Shown: positions 1-62,135 of the stretch, in pieces | Layout of the letters: each line of letters starts with the position of its first letter | Numbering within the stretch: position 1 is the stretch's first letter | Assembly (NCBI GenBank): GCA_014238065.1 | Contig: JABABU010000024.1 | Location: 124,001-188,000, forward strand | DNA length: 64,000 nucleotides | Direction of reading: 5' to 3' | DNA from: Actinomycetota bacterium | Lineage (GTDB): Bacteria; Actinomycetota; Acidimicrobiia; Acidimicrobiales; Poriferisodalaceae | Position numbers and translations under genes: made by a program | Notes under the pieces: model-generated | Database searches by the model: none | What the model was told of the DNA's origin: nothing | The model's input: only the letters and a program-made list of their open reading frames with translations

Positions 1-1150
1 GGGGAAAGACGATCTCCGGCCATTCGTCGCACTGGCCGACACCGTGGAACATCACGCAGTAGTGGCGGTACTCATCGGGCGGTGGCATCCACGAATCGAA
101 AGTCAACTCCCGGAAGGTTCTGCCGGGAGTCAGCAGCTCGAGATTCATGTTGATCTGGTGGAAGGCCAGGTCGTAGACACTCTGTTGGGCTGGTGACGGA
201 GCAACGTCGCCGGCAATCCATGAACGGGAGATGTCGCACATCATCCCGTAGGCACCGACCAGATCGGTGTCGTAGGCGACAACGTCGCCGGCCTCGATGA
301 TGCGCGAGCTCGCTTCCTGCATCCACGGATTCGTTCGGGGCCCCGACGCGAAGATCTGCGTCTCGATCCATTCGCCGGCGCGGGCGATGTTGCCTCCGTG
401 CAGCACGGACCACACTTCGCGTTCGGTCATTCCGGGCTTCATCACTGCTCGCATGTCGGCCATGCTCGACTCGCATGCGTTGACTGCGCAGCGCATGGCC
501 GCGATCTCGTCTGGTCCCTTGATCGCTCGGGCTGCCTCCATCACCTCCTGACCGTTGCCAATGCTGATACCGGCAGCTTCGAGGTCCTGGTAGCCGATGT
601 GGTGACATTGATCGATGGCGATCCGTGGCTGGTCACCACAGTGCTCGCGGATGACGTCGAGCATCTCGGCCGCCCACTGGTGGGCCTTCTCCTCGAATCG
701 TGATCCTGCGATGAACACGGTCGACCCGATGGCAGGCCGGATCTCGGTGACCAGTTCGTTGTGCGCTGCGAGGAACTCGGCCTTGAAGAACTCCCAGACG
801 ATGACCGAGCCGTCTGCCCCGATCCACGCGTAGCGGGCCGCGTTGTGCATGACCCACAGCTGCATGTTCGTCGAGTCGGTTGCGTACCGGATGTTCAGCG
901 GATCCATCACGATGATGGCGTCGTATCCGAGCCGATCGAGCTGATCGAGGATTCTCCGGTGACGATATCGGCGCATCTCGTCGAGGTCGGGAAGGCGCAG
1001 TCCTGCCGACATCCACTCGGCTTCCAGGGACGGGCCTGGCCCCATCTCGATGTGATGAAGCTCCGAGCTGGCGGCGAGAACCTCCGGTGTCGAATCGGCC
1101 AGGTAACGCCGCGCCCCGTGGAGCACCGAGTCGTGAAGTCGTCCAACCAT
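1..1150 (-). CDS. dddP: DddP-like DMSP lyase candidate (M24 metallopeptidase fold), 3' end cut by window edge
   Basis: An open frame of 383 codons starts at ATG 1150 and runs off the left edge. An N-terminal creatinase-type domain is followed by the pita-bread M24 domain. Asp294 and Asp296 (YDTDLVGAYG), Asp306 (CDISRSW) and His369 (MFHGVG) match the M24 metal ligands; the two expected Glu ligands would lie beyond the edge. Stretches such as DPLNIRYATDSTNMQLW, RAIKGPDEIAAMRC and GEWIETQIFASGPRTNPW are what I recall from DddP, which cleaves dimethylsulfoniopropionate to DMS and acrylate, rather than from ordinary prolidases. About 60 residues of a DddP-length protein are missing. The fold is certain. 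The DddP call is inferred from remembered sequence, and an uncharacterised M24 hydrolase is the alternative. It is divergent from the gene at 1206. Confidence 0.72.
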   Translation of the reverse strand, partial: MVGRLHDSVLHGARRYLADSTPEVLAASSELHHIEMGPGPSLEAEWMSAGLRLPDLDEMRRYRHRRILDQLDRLGYDAIIVMDPLNIRYATDSTNMQLWVMHNAARYAWIGADGSVIVWEFFKAEFLAAHNELVTEIRPAIGSTVFIAGSRFEEKAHQWAAEMLDVIREHCGDQPRIAIDQCHHIGYQDLEAAGISIGNGQEVMEAARAIKGPDEIAAMRCAVNACESSMADMRAVMKPGMTEREVWSVLHGGNIARAGEWIETQIFASGPRTNPWMQEASSRIIEAGDVVAYDTDLVGAYGMMCDISRSWIAGDVAPSPAQQSVYDLAFHQINMNLELLTPGRTFRELTFDSWMPPPDEYRHYCVMFHGVGQCDEWPEIVFP

Positions 1151-1205: not shown

Positions 1206-2201
1206 GTGTACGAAGATCAAGCAGTCACGTACATGGTGGCTCGGATTGGTGACGGTCCTCTGATCGATGCTTCGACGCACCCTTCGATCGGTGAGAACAT
1301 CCAAGGCCCCAGCCTGGTGAAGATGCCCGACTGGTGTGCCGACCGCCTTGGCACGTATCACCTGTACTTCGCCGATCACAAGGGCAGCTACATCCGGCTG
1401 GCGTTCGCCGATGACATAGCGGGCCCATGGCATGTTCACGAACCTGGAAGTCTCCAGCTGGCCGACTCGCTGTTTCTCACAGAGCCGCCTCCGCTCAGTG
1501 AGGCGAAGCTCGACGAGATCCGTCTCGCCGCGAAGGAGCGAGGCGTGCAGTTGCCTCACGACATCGCCCTCGAGGTCGTGACGCCACACATCGCATCGCC
1601 CGATGTGCATGTCGACGCGGCTAATCGGCGGTTCGTCATGTATTTCCATGGGCTCGAGGGCTTGGGCCGCCAGGTCAGCCGGGTGGCGGTGTCTGACGAT
1701 GGCATCAACTTCAGCGCGCTTCCGGAGACCCTCGAACAGACTTACCTGAGGGTCTTCGCCTACGACGGCATGTTCTACGGCCTGGCGATGCCTGGTCAGC
1801 TGTACCGGTCGGCGAACGGTATCGACCGGTGGGAGGAGGGTCCCCGGCTCTTTGAGCCCGACATGCGGCACTGTGCTGTCAGATTGGTCGGCGAGACACT
1901 CGACGTCTTTTGGTCGAGGGTCGGCGATGCTCCTGAGAGGATCCTGCTGTCGACCGTCTCCCTCAGCGGCGACTGGAGCAACTGGACGTGGACGGGACCG
2001 GTCGATGTGCTTCGTCCTGAGCTTGCATGGGAGGGTGCCGAGGCCCCGAACGAGCCGTCGGTCCGGAGCGTCGCCTATGGCCTCGTGAACCAACTTCGCG
2101 ACCCGGCGATCCACAGTGAAGGCGACAGACTGGTGCTGCTCTATGCCTTTGGCGGCGAGTCGGGAATTGCTGCCGCCGAACTGCACGACATGAGAGGCTG
2201 A
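1206..2201 (+). CDS. Glycosyl hydrolase-like five-bladed beta-propeller protein
   Basis: A 331-residue protein without signal peptide. Repeated blade-like segments are visible: NIQGPSLVKMPDW (about 31-43), YHLYFADHKGSYIRLAFADD (51-70), HIASPDVHVD (128-137) and RRFVMYFHG (141-149). This pattern of acidic turns and aromatic strands is typical of GH43/GH32-like propellers and related uncharacterised proteins. No catalytic triad can be assigned by eye, so the substrate is unknown. The ATG at 1206 is the first start; an ATG nine codons later (1233) is an alternative. The gene diverges from the DddP-like gene across 55 bp and is followed on the same strand by a cupin gene 83 bp downstream, which may share its transcript. 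Confidence 0.6.
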   Translation: MYEDQAVTYMVARIGDGPLIDASTHPSIGENIQGPSLVKMPDWCADRLGTYHLYFADHKGSYIRLAFADDIAGPWHVHEPGSLQLADSLFLTEPPPLSEAKLDEIRLAAKERGVQLPHDIALEVVTPHIASPDVHVDAANRRFVMYFHGLEGLGRQVSRVAVSDDGINFSALPETLEQTYLRVFAYDGMFYGLAMPGQLYRSANGIDRWEEGPRLFEPDMRHCAVRLVGETLDVFWSRVGDAPERILLSTVSLSGDWSNWTWTGPVDVLRPELAWEGAEAPNEPSVRSVAYGLVNQLRDPAIHSEGDRLVLLYAFGGESGIAAAELHDMRG

Positions 2202-2284: not shown

Positions 2285-3316
2285 GTGACGGCATCAGTCA
2301 CGACATGGGCTCCGGTTGGAGTCGAAGGCACGCCGCATCTGGTTCATCAACCGATGGTGGCTCACTCGCGGCTGCATCTCGTGACTGACGGCATCGACGT
2401 CACCGATCTCGCGGCCGCGATCGCGGAGCGGGAAGCTATCGGCTATCGACTCGACACGATCATGCCGGCAGACGATCCGGTGCACGCATGGATGTCGGAT
2501 GGCTCAGGAGCGACGATCGAGCTTCACGCGCCTCCCCGAGGACCTCGGGAGGCGTCGAACGACGATTCGCGACTCGTCGTCAGACGAGGTGAAGAAGGGG
2601 GAACGGGTGATGGGCGGGCTGGCATGGCCTATCGCGACCTCGTCCCCGGCCGCTTCGGCGGGAAGGTCATCGCGTCGCACATCAGCATCGAAAGTGGCGG
2701 CCCGACCGCTGACTACCCGCATCATCACGAGATCGATTTCCAGGCCATCGTCTGTGTGGCGGGCTGGGTCGATGTCGTGTACGAGGATCAGGGTCCGCCG
2801 TTCAGGATGGTCCCAGGTGATTGTGTGGTGCAGCCGCCGACCATAGGCCATCGTGTGCTCGCTTCGTCAGCCGGCCTGGCCGTCTTGGAGGTGGCCTCGC
2901 CATCGAGTCACCCGACACATCGCCGGCACGACCTCACGCTTCCAACCGGCAGGGTGATACCCGATCGTGATTTCGTTGGTCAACGGTTCGTCAGGCACAT
3001 CGCCGCCGATTCCGACTGGGTGCCGATGACTGACGCTGGTTGCGAACAACAGTCGACGGGAATCGGCGCTGCAACGGGTGGTGCCGGTGACGTGAACTTC
3101 ATCCGTATCGGACGCGGCTCTGCGGCCCCGCTGGCCATGACCTATCGAGCATCGGCCGGAGTCCTGCTGGTTCAAGCCGGCGAAGTGAGCATCGATGTCG
3201 ACGGTCGAACGGCAACGCTCGAGACTGACGACTCGGTTTCCACATCCGAGCCTGACGCGGCGATCATCACGGGTATCGCCGAATCGAGTGAGGTAGTGCT
3301 GGTGTCGGTCAGGTGA
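2285..3316 (+). CDS. Double cupin-domain protein
   Basis: About 343 residues from a GTG start at 2285; an in-frame stop at 2258-2260 rules out a longer form, and ATG 2354 is an alternative. An N-terminal alpha/beta part of about 80 residues precedes two cupin barrels. The first has the metal motif DYPHHHEIDFQ, then GWVDVVYEDQG and the PGDCVVQPP turn. The second (NFIRIGRGSAAPL onward) has GEVSIDVDG but no clear His-x-His, so it is probably structural. Bicupins of this kind act as sugar isomerases, dioxygenases or small-molecule sensors; nothing here selects one. The end overlaps the convergent monooxygenase gene by 8 bp. Confidence 0.62.
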   Translation: MTASVTTWAPVGVEGTPHLVHQPMVAHSRLHLVTDGIDVTDLAAAIAEREAIGYRLDTIMPADDPVHAWMSDGSGATIELHAPPRGPREASNDDSRLVVRRGEEGGTGDGRAGMAYRDLVPGRFGGKVIASHISIESGGPTADYPHHHEIDFQAIVCVAGWVDVVYEDQGPPFRMVPGDCVVQPPTIGHRVLASSAGLAVLEVASPSSHPTHRRHDLTLPTGRVIPDRDFVGQRFVRHIAADSDWVPMTDAGCEQQSTGIGAATGGAGDVNFIRIGRGSAAPLAMTYRASAGVLLVQAGEVSIDVDGRTATLETDDSVSTSEPDAAIITGIAESSEVVLVSVR

Positions 3317-4910
3317 GCACGAAGCCTTCGTAGCCGTTGGCGACGACCTCGTTGCACTTCTCGACATACGGCGGGTATCCGATGAGCGGCATGAACACGC
3401 GGGTCTTGCCGGGAACGTTTGCACCGAGGTACCACGAGTTGCAGCTTGGGAAGAGGGTGAAGTCGGCGACAGTGTTGACGTGGTCGACCCATTCGTCCTC
3501 GGCTTCGACAGTCGCCTCGATTGTCGTCCTGTTGTTGGATCGGAGGTGATCCATGCAATCGGCGATCCAATCGACGTGCTGCTCGATCGACACGATCATG
3601 TTCGTGAGTACCGACGGGCTGCCTGGGCCCGAGATCGTGAAGAGGTTCGGGAACCCTGGTATCTGCAAGCCCAGGTAGGTCCGCGGCCCTGCACTCCATT
3701 TGTCCTGAATGGTGAGGCCGTCGCGCCCGCGGATGTCGATTCTCAACAGCGTTCCTGTCATCGCATCGAACCCGGTTGCGAGCACGATGCAGTCGACGTC
3801 GACCTCTCGCCCATTCGACGCAACGCCCGATGCCGTCATAGAGACAGGGTGCTCGCTGACATCCACGAGGTCGATGTTCGGGCGGTTGAAGGTCTCGAAA
3901 TAACCGGTGTCGAGACACAGTCGTTTGCAGCCGAGCACCTGCGTCGGTGAGAGCAGCGCCGCGGTGTTCGGGTCGACGACAATCCCGGCGATCTTTCGTC
4001 GCACGAACTCGGCGGCGGTGTCGTTCGACTCTTGGCTCAGCAAGTGATCGGTGTACGCGGAAAGAAACCCGAACCCACCCTCGTCCCATCGCCGCTCGAA
4101 CTCGAGATACCGCTCTTCCTCGTCGGCTTCGAGCGCTGCTATTTCTCCTCGACGGATTCGCGAACCGAAGCCACCGTTCTGAAGGCTGTTGGCGGCCCGG
4201 AACTCGGCATAGTTGGACTTGATCTCGGCCTGTACCTCGGGCTCGAGGGGCTCATTGCGGGCAGGGATCGAATAGTTCGCGGTGCGCTGGAAAATCGTGG
4301 TGTGTTGCGCTTCGTCGGCGATGATGGGAATCGCCTGGATGCCAGATGACCCTGTTCCGATCACTGCCACGCGTTTGCCTGTGAAGTCGACACCTTCGTG
4401 TGGCCATTTGCCTGTGTGATAGATCGGACCTTCGAAGTTGTCCATTCCGGCGAAGCTCGGTGTGTTCTCCGACGAGAGGCACCCTGTGGCCATCACCAGG
4501 AACTGTGCGGTGACGGTTGCTCCTTCGTCGGTGCTGACGGTCCACCGATCGGTCGACTCCTGGTACACCGCGCTCGTCACCGACGTCTCGAACGTGATGT
4601 CGCGACGAAGGTCGAATCGGTCTGCGACGTGACTCGCGTAGCGCAGGATCTCTGGCTGGCCCGAGTATTTCTCGGTCCACTCCCATTCCTGCTGCAGGTC
4701 GCCATCGAACTGATAGCTGTACTCCATGCTCGGAACATCGCATCTCGCTCCCGGATACCGATTCCAGTACCAGGTGCCTCCGACATCGCTCGCCCTTTCG
4801 AAGACATGCGCAGTGAAGCCCATCTGGCGAGATTTGTGCAGCATGTACATGCCGGCGAAGCCGGACCCGACGATGACGACGTCGTAGGTGTTGTTCGTTG
4901 GCTCCGGCAT
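3309..4910 (-). CDS. Baeyer-Villiger flavin monooxygenase
   Basis: 533 residues starting MPEPTNN at ATG 4910; an upstream in-frame ATG at 4991 adds only Arg/Pro-rich low-complexity residues. The FAD Rossmann motif GSGFAG is at 15-20, the complete Baeyer-Villiger fingerprint FEGPIYHTGKWP at 159-170 (FxGxxxHxxxWP) and the NADPH motif GTGSSG at 185-190. These soluble type I enzymes insert one oxygen from O2 next to a ketone to give an ester or lactone, using NADPH. The ring or chain specificity cannot be read from sequence. The gene stands alone on the minus strand, convergent with the cupin gene and divergent from the aminotransferase at 5023 across 112 bp. Confidence 0.9.
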   Translation of the reverse strand: MPEPTNNTYDVVIVGSGFAGMYMLHKSRQMGFTAHVFERASDVGGTWYWNRYPGARCDVPSMEYSYQFDGDLQQEWEWTEKYSGQPEILRYASHVADRFDLRRDITFETSVTSAVYQESTDRWTVSTDEGATVTAQFLVMATGCLSSENTPSFAGMDNFEGPIYHTGKWPHEGVDFTGKRVAVIGTGSSGIQAIPIIADEAQHTTIFQRTANYSIPARNEPLEPEVQAEIKSNYAEFRAANSLQNGGFGSRIRRGEIAALEADEEERYLEFERRWDEGGFGFLSAYTDHLLSQESNDTAAEFVRRKIAGIVVDPNTAALLSPTQVLGCKRLCLDTGYFETFNRPNIDLVDVSEHPVSMTASGVASNGREVDVDCIVLATGFDAMTGTLLRIDIRGRDGLTIQDKWSAGPRTYLGLQIPGFPNLFTISGPGSPSVLTNMIVSIEQHVDWIADCMDHLRSNNRTTIEATVEAEDEWVDHVNTVADFTLFPSCNSWYLGANVPGKTRVFMPLIGYPPYVEKCNEVVANGYEGFVLT

Positions 4911-5022
4911 CGGCGTTCCTATCGCATCCGCGTACGAGTCGAATCTACGACGCCGAGTCGGCGTCGGCGGTAGATCCAACCTCCGCCTCACCGGACCGGC
5001 CGCACAGCGGTAGATTACGTCG

Positions 5023-6207
5023 ATGAGCCTTCAGTACGGGCGACCGATGGTCGCAACCCCTGGACCATCGGTCATTCCTGAGAGCGTGCTCGCGGCAATG
5101 GGCCGCTCGATGCCGAACATCTATGGAGGTGAGTTGCTGGAGGTGTCTGACTCGGTGTTCGCCGACCTCAAGCAACTCGTCGGCACAGAAGGCAACGTCT
5201 ACATCACGATCGACAACGGTCACGGTGCGTGGGGAATGTCGGTGACGAACACGTTGTCGCCTGGCGACAAGGTCTTGGTTCTCGAATCAGGACGTTTCGC
5301 AATCGGCTGGGGAGAGAGCGCTGTCCCGCTCGGGGTGGAGATCGAGGTGCTCATGGCGCCTGAGCGTGGAGCTATCGATCCGGCAGCAGTAGAGCAACGG
5401 CTCCGCGCCGATGTCGATGGTGAGATAAAGGCGATTCTCGCGGTTCAGATCGATACGGCGTCTTCGGTGATGAACGATATTGCCTCGATCAGAGCCGCGA
5501 TCGATGCCGCCGGCCACGATGGACTGTTCATGGTCGACTGCATCGCCTCATTGGCCTGCGTGCCATACGAGATGGACGCATGGGGTGTCGATCTCACCGT
5601 TGGGGCGGCGCAGAAGGGGCTCATGGTGCCGCCCGGCGTTGCGTTCGTGTGGGCTGGACCGAAGGCTCTTGACGCTCACGCAACGGCCGGATTGCGCACG
5701 AGTCATTGGGACTGGAAGAGTCGTCGGCTCGACGAAGCGCACTACGTACGATTTGACGGCACGCCTCCGGTCAGTCACATCTACGCCATGCGTGCAGCGC
5801 TTGACCTGCTGAGCGAGGAAGGGCTGGATCGTGTCTACCACCGACATACGGTGCTTGGTGGTGCCGTCCGCGCCGCGGTCGAAGCGTGGTCGACACCAGG
5901 CGGGCTCGAGCTCAACATCGTCGACCCTGCGGCTCGGTCCAATGCGGTGACAACCATCCTGTCGAACTCGATCGATGCCGATCGTCTGCGCGAGATGTGC
6001 GCAGAGCAGGCCGGTCTGTGGCTAGGCGTCGGCATCGGCGAGTATGCCGACACGTCATTTCGGATCGGTCACATGGGTCACCTCAACCCGCCGATGATTC
6101 TCGGGACGCTCGGAACGGTCGAGGCAGCACTGATCGCGATGGACGCGCCCTTCGGCGAATCGGGCGTTGCTGCCGCTGCAGCACACATCGCTACGGCCTT
6201 GAGCTGA
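5023..6207 (+). CDS. Class V PLP aminotransferase (serine/alanine-glyoxylate aminotransferase family)
   Basis: 394 residues beginning MSLQYGRPMVATPGPS. The family hallmarks are the N-terminal TPGPS motif (12-16), FMVDCIASL (169-177), whose Asp172 should hold the pyridine nitrogen of PLP, and the Schiff-base lysine Lys198 in GAAQKGLMVPPG. The C-terminal GIGEYADTSFRIGHMG is the typical domain-closing segment with the carboxylate-binding Arg. Members move the amino group of serine, alanine or aspartate to glyoxylate and work in photorespiration-like or C1 metabolism. No serine-cycle gene sits nearby, so the true amino donor is open. It is a single gene, convergent with the gene ending at 6223. 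Confidence 0.85.
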   Translation: MSLQYGRPMVATPGPSVIPESVLAAMGRSMPNIYGGELLEVSDSVFADLKQLVGTEGNVYITIDNGHGAWGMSVTNTLSPGDKVLVLESGRFAIGWGESAVPLGVEIEVLMAPERGAIDPAAVEQRLRADVDGEIKAILAVQIDTASSVMNDIASIRAAIDAAGHDGLFMVDCIASLACVPYEMDAWGVDLTVGAAQKGLMVPPGVAFVWAGPKALDAHATAGLRTSHWDWKSRRLDEAHYVRFDGTPPVSHIYAMRAALDLLSEEGLDRVYHRHTVLGGAVRAAVEAWSTPGGLELNIVDPAARSNAVTTILSNSIDADRLREMCAEQAGLWLGVGIGEYADTSFRIGHMGHLNPPMILGTLGTVEAALIAMDAPFGESGVAAAAAHIATALS

Positions 6208-21461: not shown

Positions 21462-22457
21462 TCAGCTGTTGACGTCGACGACGACTCTGCCGCGGACTTG
21501 GCCTCGGAGGATGTCGGCGCAAAGTCCTGGGACGTCGGTCAACGTGGCCGGAACCACCATGGCCTCGAGTTGGTCCATCGGCAGGTCGCTGGCGAGCCGG
21601 GTCCACGCTGCGACGCGGTTCTCGTACGGCTGCATGACGGAGTCGATGCCCAGGAGGTTGATGCCGCGGAGCAAGAACGGGATGACTGACCCCGGGAGAT
21701 GTGCCCCTCCTGCGAGCCCGACTGCAGCCGCCGAAGCGCCGTACTTCAGCTGTCCGAGGACGCGGGCGAGCATGTCGCCGCCGACTGGATCGATGCACCC
21801 CGACCACGTTTCGCCTTCGAGCGGGCGGCGCACGGTTTCGTCGACCTCTTCGCGGGCGACTATCTGTGTAGCTCCCAGCCCGGCGAGGTAGTCGGCCGAC
21901 TCTGGGCGACCTGTGACCGCAGCGACTTCATAGCCGAGTGCAGCGAGCAACGCTACGGCGACGGAACCGACACCGCCGCTGGCTCCTGTGACGAGCACGG
22001 GTCCTGATCCTGGAGTGAGCCCGTGGTTCTCGAGTGCCAGGACGGACAGCATCGAGGTCAGCCCTGCGGTACCGATGGCCATGGCTTCACGGCTGCTGAC
22101 TCCATCGGGCAGCGGCACGAGCCAATCGGCTTTCACGCATGCCTTCTGGGCATAGCCACCCCACCAGGCTTCGCCGACGCGCCAGCCGGTGAGCACCACT
22201 CGATCGCCGGGTGCGTATCGATGGTCCCTCGACGACTCGACGGTGCCGGCGAAATCGATGCCACCAACGTGCGGGTAATTTCGGACCAGTCCGCCGCCGT
22301 TGGCCGAATAGCAGAGCCCGTCCTTGTAGTTCACCGTCGAGTATTCGACCGCAACGACAACATCGCCTTCTGGAAGATCGGCGTCCTCGAGTTGCATGAC
22401 GGCGGCGAAGGGAGCTGACTCTTCGTCGGCCTTGCTCAGGACCAGTGCGTCGAACAT
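21462..22457 (-). CDS. acuI: Acrylyl-CoA reductase (AcuI/YhdH family MDR)
   Basis: 331 residues of the medium-chain reductase family without zinc-binding cysteines. Family hallmarks: VNYKDG (42-47), GIDFAG (66-71), the AcuI/YhdH-type GWRVGEAWWGGYAQ (91-104) and the NADPH Rossmann motif TGASGGVGSVA (157-167). AcuI reduces toxic acryloyl-CoA to propionyl-CoA with NADPH, a step needed after DMSP lyases release acrylate. It lies 6 bp after an SDR gene that is itself coupled to a thiolase, so it sits in a short-chain acyl-CoA operon. A DddP-like gene 20 kb to the left supports the acrylate role, but a general enoyl-CoA or quinone reductase remains possible. Confidence 0.8.
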   Translation of the reverse strand: MFDALVLSKADEESAPFAAVMQLEDADLPEGDVVVAVEYSTVNYKDGLCYSANGGGLVRNYPHVGGIDFAGTVESSRDHRYAPGDRVVLTGWRVGEAWWGGYAQKACVKADWLVPLPDGVSSREAMAIGTAGLTSMLSVLALENHGLTPGSGPVLVTGASGGVGSVAVALLAALGYEVAAVTGRPESADYLAGLGATQIVAREEVDETVRRPLEGETWSGCIDPVGGDMLARVLGQLKYGASAAAVGLAGGAHLPGSVIPFLLRGINLLGIDSVMQPYENRVAAWTRLASDLPMDQLEAMVVPATLTDVPGLCADILRGQVRGRVVVDVNS

Positions 22458-22463
22458 CGGTCT

Positions 22464-23243
22464 CTACTTCGGTGGCATGCGGATGCCGCCATCGAGTCTG
22501 ATGGTTTCTCCGTTCATGTACGGGTTGGTGATGCATTCCATCACGCCGAAGGCCAGTTCTTCGCCGGAGCCGAGGCGCTTGGGAAACAGCACACTTGCAC
22601 CGAGGTGAGCCTTGAACGCATCGCTCTGCTCGCCGGTGCCGTAGATGGGCGTGTCGATGAGGCCTGGCGCGATGGTGTTCACTCTGATGCCGGCTGCGGA
22701 AAGGTCACGGGCGATCGGGAGGGTCATGCCCACCACCCCGCCCTTCGAAGCCGAGTAGGCGCACTGGCCGATCTGACCGTCGAACGCGGCCGCCGAGGCC
22801 ATGTTGACGATGGCGCCACGCGAGCCGTCTTCGTCGACGGGGCCGGTTTTTGCCATCGCGGCTGCAGCCTGGCTCAACATGTTGAACGAGCCAATCAGGT
22901 TCACCTTGATGACGAAGGTGAAGCGCTCGAGGTCCATCGGCACGTTGTTGCGATCGATGGTGCGGGCGGCGTAGCCGAGGCCGGCGGAGTTCACCAGCGA
23001 GCGGAGCGGCCCCATCTCCGAAGCAGCAGCGACGGCTGCCTGCGCGTCGTCGACACTCGACACATCGCACTTGACGAACAGGCCGCCGAGTTCCGACGCG
23101 ACGGTTTGGCCGCCTTCCTCGTTGAGGTCGGCGATGACGACACGTGCGCCGGCAGCTGCGAGTTGACGGGCGCTGGCTTCCCCGATTCCCGAGGCACCTC
23201 CGGTGATGATGGAGGAACTCCCCTCCAGGTTCATGCGTGGCAT
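22464..23243 (-). CDS. Short-chain dehydrogenase (3-hydroxyacyl-CoA dehydrogenase type)
   Basis: 259 residues from ATG 23243, whose ATG overlaps the thiolase stop (TGATG), the hallmark of translational coupling; a second ATG is at 23234. The cofactor motif TGGASGIG is at 14-21, NSAG at 85-88, and the catalytic Ser150, Tyr163 and Lys167 (YSASKGG) are all in place. Asp39 after the second strand (VVIADLN) predicts NAD preference. The sequence resembles type II 3-hydroxyacyl-CoA dehydrogenases (HSD17B10-like), which fits its place between a thiolase and an acyl-CoA reductase. The substrate is probably a short or branched hydroxyacyl-CoA. Confidence 0.85.
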   Translation of the reverse strand: MPRMNLEGSSSIITGGASGIGEASARQLAAAGARVVIADLNEEGGQTVASELGGLFVKCDVSSVDDAQAAVAAASEMGPLRSLVNSAGLGYAARTIDRNNVPMDLERFTFVIKVNLIGSFNMLSQAAAAMAKTGPVDEDGSRGAIVNMASAAAFDGQIGQCAYSASKGGVVGMTLPIARDLSAAGIRVNTIAPGLIDTPIYGTGEQSDAFKAHLGASVLFPKRLGSGEELAFGVMECITNPYMNGETIRLDGGIRMPPK

Positions 23244-24427
23244 CAGTCGCTGATCCTTTCGATGATCGTGGCGTTTGCGAGACCGCCACCTTCGCACATC
23301 GTTTGCATCCCGTAGCGACCACCGGTTCGCTCGAGTTCGTTCAACAGCGTTGCCATGAGTTTGGTGCCCGACGATCCGAGTGGGTGCCCCAGGGCGATAG
23401 CGCCACCGTTCACGTTTGTCTTCGACAGGTCGGTGTTGTGCTCTTTTTGCCAGGCGAGCACGACCGAGGCGAAGGCCTCGTTGACCTCGAACAGGTCGAT
23501 GTCGTCGATCGTGAGGCCGGAACGCTCGAGGATCTTCTCGGTCGCCGGGATCGGACCCTTCAGCATCGTGACGGGATCGGCGCCGACAACGGCGAAGCTG
23601 TGGAACCTGGCTCGTGGCCTGAGGCCGAGTTCGGCGGCCTTCTCTTCGCTCATGACGAGGACCGCTGATGCGCCGTCCGAGATCTGGCTGGAGTTGCCTG
23701 CTGTGACTTTGCCGTCCTCCTTGAACGCCGGCTTGAGGTTGCCGAGTGTGTCCGAGGTGGTGCCGTGGCGAATGCCCTCGTCACGCGTCATCATCTCGAC
23801 CTGTCCGTCGATCGTCACCGGAACGGGGACGATTTCGTTCTCGAACCGACCTTGTTCTGTCGCCACTGCCGCTCGACGCTGGCTTTCAGCTCCATAGGAG
23901 TCGAGGTCTTGCCGAGTGATGCCGTACTCGTCGGCGATCATCTCTGCGCCGATGCCCTGTGGAGGGAGACCGGTGTCTTCGTACCGATCCTGCATCGCAG
24001 CGGGGAAAGGAATGCCCATGCCCTTCACGATCGAGGCACCCATCGGGGTACGGGTCATCACCTCGACACCTGCGGCGATAGCGATGTCGTAGGCGCCGGC
24101 AATGACGCCCTGGGCGGCGAAGTGCAACGCCTGTTGGCTCGATCCGCACTGACGGTCGACGGTGGTGGCCGGAACCGACTCTGGCCAACCGGCAGTGAGC
24201 ACCGCGTTTCGGCCGATGTTGAGAGACTGCTCGCCGACCTGCATGACACAACCCATGATGACGTCGTCGACCATCGAAGGGTCGAGGCCGTTGCGTTCTT
24301 CGAGAGCCTTCAGTACGTGGGCGCCGAGTTCAGCGGGATGCCAGTCTTGAAGCTTGCCGTTCCGTTTGCCGCCAGGCGTGCGGACGGCGTCGACGATGAC
24401 GGCGGTGCGCGGGGTCATGTTGCTCAT
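23243..24427 (-). CDS. Acetyl-CoA C-acyltransferase (thiolase)
   Basis: 394 residues with all thiolase residues: nucleophile Cys94 in DRQCGSSQQA, His348 in GHPLGSSGT and the second Cys378 in TMCEGGG. Starts at 24427 (MSNMTPRT) or 24418. The DRQCGSSQQA version is common in degradative FadA/PcaF-type enzymes rather than biosynthetic PhaA. It is first in a minus-strand operon with the SDR and the AcuI-like reductase, and diverges from an acyl-CoA dehydrogenase gene across 147 bp. The four genes together make a nearly complete beta-oxidation set without an enoyl-CoA hydratase. Confidence 0.9.
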   Translation of the reverse strand: MSNMTPRTAVIVDAVRTPGGKRNGKLQDWHPAELGAHVLKALEERNGLDPSMVDDVIMGCVMQVGEQSLNIGRNAVLTAGWPESVPATTVDRQCGSSQQALHFAAQGVIAGAYDIAIAAGVEVMTRTPMGASIVKGMGIPFPAAMQDRYEDTGLPPQGIGAEMIADEYGITRQDLDSYGAESQRRAAVATEQGRFENEIVPVPVTIDGQVEMMTRDEGIRHGTTSDTLGNLKPAFKEDGKVTAGNSSQISDGASAVLVMSEEKAAELGLRPRARFHSFAVVGADPVTMLKGPIPATEKILERSGLTIDDIDLFEVNEAFASVVLAWQKEHNTDLSKTNVNGGAIALGHPLGSSGTKLMATLLNELERTGGRYGMQTMCEGGGLANATIIERISD

Positions 24428-60469: not shown

Positions 60470-60575
60470 CGAGCGTTCGCCACCAACTCCCGACAGCGGC
60501 ACCTCCACTCCGCTGCTATCTTTCGCGGCCGCGCCGGTAATGCGGTGTGACCGCGTCACCAAAGAGGCAGGGACC

Positions 60576-62135
60576 ATGTCCGAAAAACCGACAGCTGGCG
60601 ACAGGGGCGATCGCCACCGTCGTCGTGGCTCCAAGCGCGGAAGATCAGCCGAAACCCTGCCCGTTCAGCCGCCATTCGGCCAGCCCCGCCTCATCTATGG
60701 GCCCAGTCAAGCGGTCAGTGAGGATCAACTCGAGGCCATTCACGACGCGTCGCTGGTCGTTCTGTCGGAGATCGGACTCGACTTCCTCCACGACGAAGCG
60801 AGGCAGATGCTGGCGGCCGCCGGCGCATCCGTCGACGGTGAGCGAGTTCGCTTCGAGCCAGAGTTGGTTGAAGATCTGATCTCGACGGCACCTTCGTCGT
60901 TCACGCTGCATGCCAGAAACCCACAGCGGAGTCTCGTGATCGGTGGTGATCACGTTGCGTTCAGCTCGGTGGCGAGCGCCCCGAACGTGGCCGATCTCAC
61001 CGGTGGACGCCGGACAGGCAACATGGCCGACTTCGAGGGACTCACGAAGCTGGGGCAGATGTTGAACGCCGTGCACTTCTGGGGTGGGTATCCGGTCGAA
61101 CCGATCGATGTGCACGCATCTGTGCGTCATCTGCACGCGCTGCACAGCCAGCTCACGATGAGCGACAAGGCCGTTCACGCGTACAGCCTTGGTGCTGTTC
61201 GGAACCTCGATGTCTTGGAGATGGCCCGTATCGCCCGCGGCGTCGACGATGCAACCCTCGACGCTGAACCGTCGGTGCTCAGCGTCATCAATGTGAGCAG
61301 TCCACTTCGTCTGGATGCTCCCATGCTGCAGGGCATCATCGAGTACTCCTCACGTAACCAGTGCATCGTGCTCACGCCGTTTACCCTTTCCGGAGCCATG
61401 GCCCCCGTGACGGTTGCCGGCGCGGTGGTGCAGCAGAACGCAGAAGCCCTGGCCGGAATCGCCTTCACGCAGGCAGTTCGGCCAGGGGCGCCTGTCGTGT
61501 ATGGCGGCTTCACATCGAATGTCGACATGCAGAGTGGGGCTCCTGCCTTCGGCACACCCGAATACATGAAGTCGGCGATGCTCGGCGGACAACTTGCACG
61601 TCGCTATGGGTTGCCGTATCGGTCGTCGAATGTCAGCGCGTCGAACGCTGTCGACACCCAGGCTGGTTACGAGAGTGTGTTCTCGCTGTGGGGCGCCATT
61701 CTCGGCGGGGCAAACATGGTGTTCCACGGTGCAGGCTGGATGGAGGGCGGGCTGCACGCTTCGTACGAGAAGATGCTGATCGACGCCGACCTGCTGCAGA
61801 TGGTTGCCCACTGGCTGACGCCATTGGACGTCGATGCCGATGCGCTCGGCCTCGATGCAATCAGAGAGGTGGGGCCCGGTGGGCACTTTTTCGGAGCTGC
61901 ACACACGCAGAGCCGCTACAAGACGGCGTTCTACAAGCCGATGGTCTCCGACTGGCGCAACTACGAGAGCTGGGAAGAGGCGGGAAGCCCCGATACGGCC
62001 ACGAGGGCGGCCAAGGTCGTCAAGGACCTGATAGCCGCGCACGAAGATCCGCCGATGGACGACGCCATTCGAGCCGAACTCGACGACTTCGTCGCCCGTC
62101 GCGTTGCCGAAGGGGGCGTCGCAACCGACTTCTGA
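60576..62135 (+). CDS. Trimethylamine methyltransferase-family protein (non-pyrrolysine MttB type)
   Basis: 519 residues from ATG 60576. After a basic, disordered N-terminus of about 35 residues comes the MttB TIM barrel: DASLVVLSEIGLDFLHDEAR, QNAEALAGIAFTQAVRPGAP, YGGFTSNVDMQSGAPAFGTP and GGHFFGAAHTQSRYKTAFY. The frame has no internal amber codon, so it lacks the pyrrolysine of archaeal MttB and belongs to the larger group that demethylates quaternary amines such as glycine betaine or proline betaine. These pass the methyl group to a corrinoid protein; none is seen nearby. The demand for cobalamin may connect to cobST (speculative). Confidence 0.85.
   Translation: MSEKPTAGDRGDRHRRRGSKRGRSAETLPVQPPFGQPRLIYGPSQAVSEDQLEAIHDASLVVLSEIGLDFLHDEARQMLAAAGASVDGERVRFEPELVEDLISTAPSSFTLHARNPQRSLVIGGDHVAFSSVASAPNVADLTGGRRTGNMADFEGLTKLGQMLNAVHFWGGYPVEPIDVHASVRHLHALHSQLTMSDKAVHAYSLGAVRNLDVLEMARIARGVDDATLDAEPSVLSVINVSSPLRLDAPMLQGIIEYSSRNQCIVLTPFTLSGAMAPVTVAGAVVQQNAEALAGIAFTQAVRPGAPVVYGGFTSNVDMQSGAPAFGTPEYMKSAMLGGQLARRYGLPYRSSNVSASNAVDTQAGYESVFSLWGAILGGANMVFHGAGWMEGGLHASYEKMLIDADLLQMVAHWLTPLDVDADALGLDAIREVGPGGHFFGAAHTQSRYKTAFYKPMVSDWRNYESWEEAGSPDTATRAAKVVKDLIAAHEDPPMDDAIRAELDDFVARRVAEGGVATDF

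Follow-up and report, generated by a model that had tools for sequence, protein, structure and literature searches.

A DddP-like M24 protein from Acidimicrobiia is placed in a clade sister to the known DddPs

The DMSP lyase DddP makes dimethyl sulfide (DMS), a climate gas. Among the bacterial DMSP lyase genes of seawater, dddP is usually reported to be the most abundant. The Km of DddP for DMSP is 14–17 mM (PMC5395565) and would allow for a different original substrate, although millimolar Km values also occur in other DMSP lyases. The mechanism proposed for DddP combines an iron-rich binuclear centre with Tyr and Trp that bind the sulfur and with Asp377 as the probable base of a beta-elimination that yields DMS and acrylate (PMC4108388, PMC5395565). 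As of 2018, no functional ddd gene was known from sequenced Actinobacteria (PMC6309047). The sequence-only reading of the present locus had proposed an actinobacterial DddP as a novelty, a claim that is weakened: two reports, from 2020 (PMC7494906) and 2026 (PMC13280387), already list dddP by sequence similarity in Acidimicrobiia MAGs, while neither an enzyme assay of an Acidimicrobiia DddP-like protein nor an assayed ddd gene for this large actinobacterial lineage was found in the portions of the literature available. What is new here is that the query protein and its relatives form a sister clade of the known DddPs, with betaine-type gene neighbours and scores below the curated cut-off.

The gene lies at the left edge of the window, i.e., the whole stretch of 64,000 nucleotides that was analysed (positions 124001–188000 of contig C31 in genome G000):

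Window 1..1150, minus strand: M24/DddP-like gene, 5' part (383 codons); a further 57 codons and the stop codon follow immediately beyond the left edge.

The open frame (window 2–1150, minus strand) begins with an ATG at 1150 and runs past the left edge, with its stop 173 bases beyond it (stop included), down to position 123828 of the contig. The truncation arises because the window boundary cuts an intact gene; on the contig, the gene is whole (L009:15828–17150, minus strand), encoding 440 amino acids without an internal stop. The host is an actinobacterium: the named close relatives, which share up to 68% identity, are MAGs of Acidimicrobiales, one of them from Ilumatobacter. Judged from its sequence, the query is a real, intact and DddP-like protein, not a demonstrated DddP.

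In phmmer searches against solved structures, the query matched RlDddP (4rzy) with E = 1.1e-114 over residues 31–437 and RdDddP (4b28) with E = 8e-110, whereas prolidases trailed at 3e-15. The local identities to RlDddP and RdDddP were 45.9 and 42.9%, respectively. Length and the two-domain M24B homology are shared with DddP (4rzy, 4s00, 4s01 and 4b28), and superfamily membership is indicated by the M24 model PF00557 (101.9 bits, cut-off 23). Resemblance by chance is excluded at this level of similarity, and the two solved homologues already fix the predicted fold. The first description of the gene as DddP-like rather than prolidase-like was thus borne out. An ordinary Xaa-Pro dipeptidase (prolidase) or aminopeptidase would have the M24 fold and the metal ligands in common with the query, and outgroup relatives are indeed annotated as 'Xaa-Pro peptidase family protein'. 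However, the prolidase matches were approximately 100 orders of magnitude weaker, the curated prolidase and aminopeptidase models gave 45–47 bits (cut-offs 393–630) compared with 469 bits for the DddP model, and RlDddP is inactive on Val-Pro (PMC5395565). A prolidase identity was rejected on these scores and is very improbable. More generally, M24B prolidases, creatinase and the ectoine hydrolase DoeA share the pita-bread fold with the query, and the prolidases also the metal-site positions, but their similarity is very weak (E of 3e-15 or worse; 31.6 bits to the curated DoeA model, cut-off 575) and their chemistry is hydrolytic.

Phylogenetic trees were built from 124 rows, including long-branched outgroups, and rebuilt from 65 rows without those outgroups; the two agreed. 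The DddPs among the rows were bacterial, so that the fungal ones (Aspergillus and Fusarium) are not represented, and the assayed proteins of O. doudoroffii were represented by Oceanimonas sp. CHS3-5. In the 65-row tree, the DddP clade (19 rows, support 100/99), whose members include the RlDddP, RdDddP, Oceanimonas, Paracoccus and Loktanella proteins, excluded the query, which was placed in clade C (28 rows, 99/98), within a 15-row group (100/99) of Acidimicrobiia and relatives. Forcing it into the DddP clade cost 177 log-likelihood units and was rejected (AU p = 2.2e-5). We infer that the query belongs to a sister clade of the known DddPs, made up mainly of Acidimicrobiia proteins, and is not nested within the DddP clade. 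The curated NCBI equivalog model for DddP (NF043017) agreed, with 468.9 bits for the query and a cut-off of 600, so that the membership in the ratified DddP clade suggested by the sequence-only reading was contradicted on both counts. The cut-off follows the tree: it was passed by the Oceanimonas protein (629.5) and by those of loci L103 (616.6) and L139 (601.7), with L136 narrowly short (574), and all tested proteins of clades B and C fell below it (475–516 in clade B and 448–459 for the others of clade C). None of the 396 sampled Actinomycetota genomes attained the 600 bits. A second DddP-like protein is encoded in the same genome (L017, C31:63276–64511); it belongs to clade C, is 46% identical to the query and scores 388 bits with the DddP model.

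Query residues W99, Y364 and D375 align with W95, Y366 and D377 of DddP, W95 presumably being the sulfur-binding Trp. In DddP, Y366 and D377 are proposed to be catalytic (PMC4108388), and the Trp binds sulfur together with the Tyr (PMC5395565). The Asp-x-Asp, Asp and His spacing of the M24 metal site that had been noticed in the partial protein is real (D294, D296, D306 and H369), and extension along the contig recovered both C-terminal Glu ligands (E404 and E419), the only two of these residues encoded outside the window. The six ligands correspond to D295, D297, D307, H371, E406 and E421 of RdDddP (PMC4108388). The active site is thus complete, with none of the nine residues missing; the sequence shows the fold family of DddP, all six residues that bind its two metals and its catalytic Trp/Tyr/Asp set. 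Across the DddP clade, clade B and clade C, the nine residues were invariant in 57 of 57 proteins, and the Trp, the Tyr and D377 varied only in more distant paralogues. They cannot certify a DMSP lyase, because they are equally invariant in sister clades sitting in betaine loci, and their use as proof of that activity was rejected. Four substitutions near the catalytic residues distinguish the DddP clade from the 15-row group of the query, in which they are uniform or nearly so: R266 to Q265, C305 to M304, L375 to Q373 and C404 to T402. These changes hint at a different pocket. As side observations, D377, Y366 or W95 is missing from some outgroup members; further M24 paralogues from Acidimicrobiia, belonging to none of the DddP, B and C clades, occur at loci L161–L167 and others (35–41% identity); and the query genome encodes 14 M24 proteins.

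Gene neighbourhoods were surveyed in 60 loci with flanks of up to 10 kb, and clusters were counted only if confirmed by Pfam or by the ProV/ProX models. Cluster 1, consisting of ORFs antisense to the M24 gene, and similar clusters were set aside as shadow ORFs. Two kinds of gene lie close to the M24 gene, often within 50 bp and on the same strand: one for a methyltransferase of the MttB family (PF06253), the other for a fusion protein of dimethylglycine/sarcosine dehydrogenase type (DAO+FAO_M+GCV_T). The fusion was present in 8/12 clade B, 8/12 C2, 8/19 C and 4/17 DddP-clade loci, and MttB in 8, 8, 6 and 2 of them, respectively. A Rieske demethylase, a mandelate-racemase-type enolase, ProV and ProX also recurred. 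Of 19 Acidimicrobiia genomes, 14 had MttB within 10 kb of the best M24 hit, where gene density predicts 0.76, although these 14 genomes are related and hence do not represent 14 independent events. The same MttB/M24 arrangement occurs in clade B (Mesorhizobium, Roseibium and Kiloniella). In L175, one of the closest relatives, the gene immediately upstream of the M24 gene is TauD/GBBH-like (gamma-butyrobetaine hydroxylase-like), and plasmid-borne outgroup relatives adjoin Rieske, MttB, betaine-homocysteine methyltransferase and BCCT genes. The context does not cleanly separate the two activities, because a few DddP-clade loci have betaine neighbours as well.

The neighbours of the query gene itself are as follows:

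L009:14040–15614, plus strand: sarcosine-oxidase-like FAD enzyme (DAO), left of the M24 gene, outside the window.
L009:12666–13889, minus strand: ProV, left of the M24 gene, outside the window.
L009:11235–12536, minus strand: ProX (255 bits, cut-off 215), left of the window.
Window 1206–2201, plus strand: 331-aa frame, divergent from the M24 gene.
Window 3309..4991, minus strand: flavin-containing (Baeyer-Villiger/FMO-type) monooxygenase, right of the M24 gene.

Among solved structures, the sole match of the ProX protein was the E. coli glycine betaine-binding protein, and no solved DMSP-binding DmpX gave a score. The M24 proteins of clades B and C (Mesorhizobium, Roseibium, Kiloniella and Acidimicrobiia) belong to the same (C) or the neighbouring (B) branch as the query, carry the same residues and span 448–516 bits in the DddP model, but theirs are accompanied by the MttB/DMGDH pair, whereas the query locus has ProV/ProX and a DAO gene. 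Neither MttB nor a DMGDH-GcvT fusion was found within 10 kb of the query gene, the nearest MttB being approximately 27 kb to the left, and four other Acidimicrobiia genomes have no MttB nearby; both observations count against a betaine substrate, and gene context does not single out one substrate. Homologues of the FMO (38–40% identity) directly follow the M24 gene in the close relatives G271 and G205, so that the FMO is possibly, though not provenly, a functional partner of the M24 enzyme. No Pfam or NCBIfam model matched the 331-aa frame, and the DAO, cupin and 331-aa neighbours had no homologues in the compared loci. A class V aminotransferase (window 5023–6207, plus strand) is nearest to the aspartate-glyoxylate aminotransferase BhcA (284 bits, cut-off 650), and a homologue (35%) occurs near the M24 gene of L103.

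We tentatively favour, at a little short of an even chance, the reading that the query is an M24B metalloenzyme of the DddP superfamily, in a sister clade, whose natural substrate is an N-methylated betaine, with DMSP cleavage perhaps a side activity. By analogy with DddP, a small zwitterionic 'onium' acid would enter the pocket and bind the metals through its carboxylate, W99 and Y364 would hold the methylated cation, and D375 would take the alpha proton, whereupon the bond to the onium atom would break by beta-elimination. Gene context suggests that the natural leaving group would be a methylated amine rather than dimethyl sulfide, and that the substrate would be an N-methylated betaine imported by the ProVX-type system and otherwise processed by MttB, Rieske or FAD/folate demethylases. 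We know of no direct precedent for C-N elimination by the M24 fold, and nothing useful on M24 enzymes in betaine catabolism emerged from a literature search. A broader proposal, which we consider possible but not likely, is that the DddP superfamily consists mainly of lyases (or hydrolases) of quaternary-ammonium betaines and that cleavage of DMSP arose later, or as a side activity, in one branch.

The same surroundings could also accommodate a creatinase- or DoeA-like M24 hydrolase of an N-methylated amide or ring compound, in which water opens a C-N bond and sarcosine- or dimethylglycine-like products are passed to the neighbouring FAD demethylases. Hydrolysis of C-N bonds is the usual chemistry of M24 enzymes, and the coupling of clade B/C M24 genes to the dimethylglycine/sarcosine dehydrogenase-type fusion is what a creatinase-like step would lead one to expect. 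Nevertheless, the score to DoeA is 32 bits, and the DddP-type Trp, Tyr and Asp, which are proposed for elimination chemistry, are invariant; we regard hydrolysis as unlikely.

Two further genes of the genome bear on the rival reading of a bona fide DMSP lyase, which would physiologically convert DMSP to DMS and acrylate, the acrylate then being handled by an AcuI-type reductase:

Window 21465..22457, minus strand: AcuI/YhdH-type acrylyl-CoA reductase homologue (TIGR02823, 422 bits, cut-off 297).
Contig C30, L181:598–1701, plus strand: DmdA-like protein (DMSP demethylase model, 364 bits, cut-off 410).

The AcuI-type reductase, which would be needed downstream if the M24 enzyme formed acrylate, scored 405 bits with the AcuI equivalog (cut-off 440); it lies 20 kb from the M24 gene, beside an SDR (22464–23297) and a thiolase (23243–24427). 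The best solved relative of the DmdA-like protein is the GcvT-like 3tfh (267 bits), which we take to be P. ubique DmdA, followed by GcvT (143 bits). Contact of the host with DMSP is plausible given these AcuI-like and DmdA-like genes, which keeps the DMSP lyase reading alive, and DMSP is among the substrates that importers of the ProVX type can transport in other bacteria. The 43–46% identity to solved DddPs and the full set of nine residues also speak for it, as does the Fusarium DddP, which is just 32% identical to RdDddP and still confers DMS production (PMC4108388), so that DMSP activity may extend beyond the tested bacterial clade. Against this stand the position outside the DddP clade, the sub-threshold model score, the non-diagnostic nature of the active-site residues, the distance of the AcuI gene, and neighbours that point to N-betaines, including a binding protein that matches ProX. 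On balance, a physiological DMSP lyase is a somewhat unlikely identity. Calling the enzyme a sulfur-gas producer is premature, because it belongs to a sister branch in which the genes nearby deal mostly with betaines, which are nitrogen-based osmolytes.

The distinction matters for metagenomic surveys. Thresholds used for counting dddP include an E-value of 1e-30 (PMC8520302) and 40% similarity with E of 1e-30 (PMC13280387). The query (43–46% identity, E of 1e-114) would clear such thresholds, yet it sits outside the known DddP clade. If the DddP superfamily does act mainly on betaines, the Acidimicrobiia enzyme would release a methylated amine instead of DMS, and these thresholds would take in many non-DMSP enzymes. 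Some dddP counts, especially Acidimicrobiia assignments, would be overestimates if the sister clades make no DMS; if they do make it, DMSP cleavage would reach a large actinobacterial lineage.

The right part of the window also carries an MttB-family (non-pyrrolysine) methyltransferase gene (60540–62135, plus strand), beside a zinc alcohol dehydrogenase and a nitronate-monooxygenase-like gene. The query genome has nine MttB genes, a family detected in just 1 of 14 control genomes.
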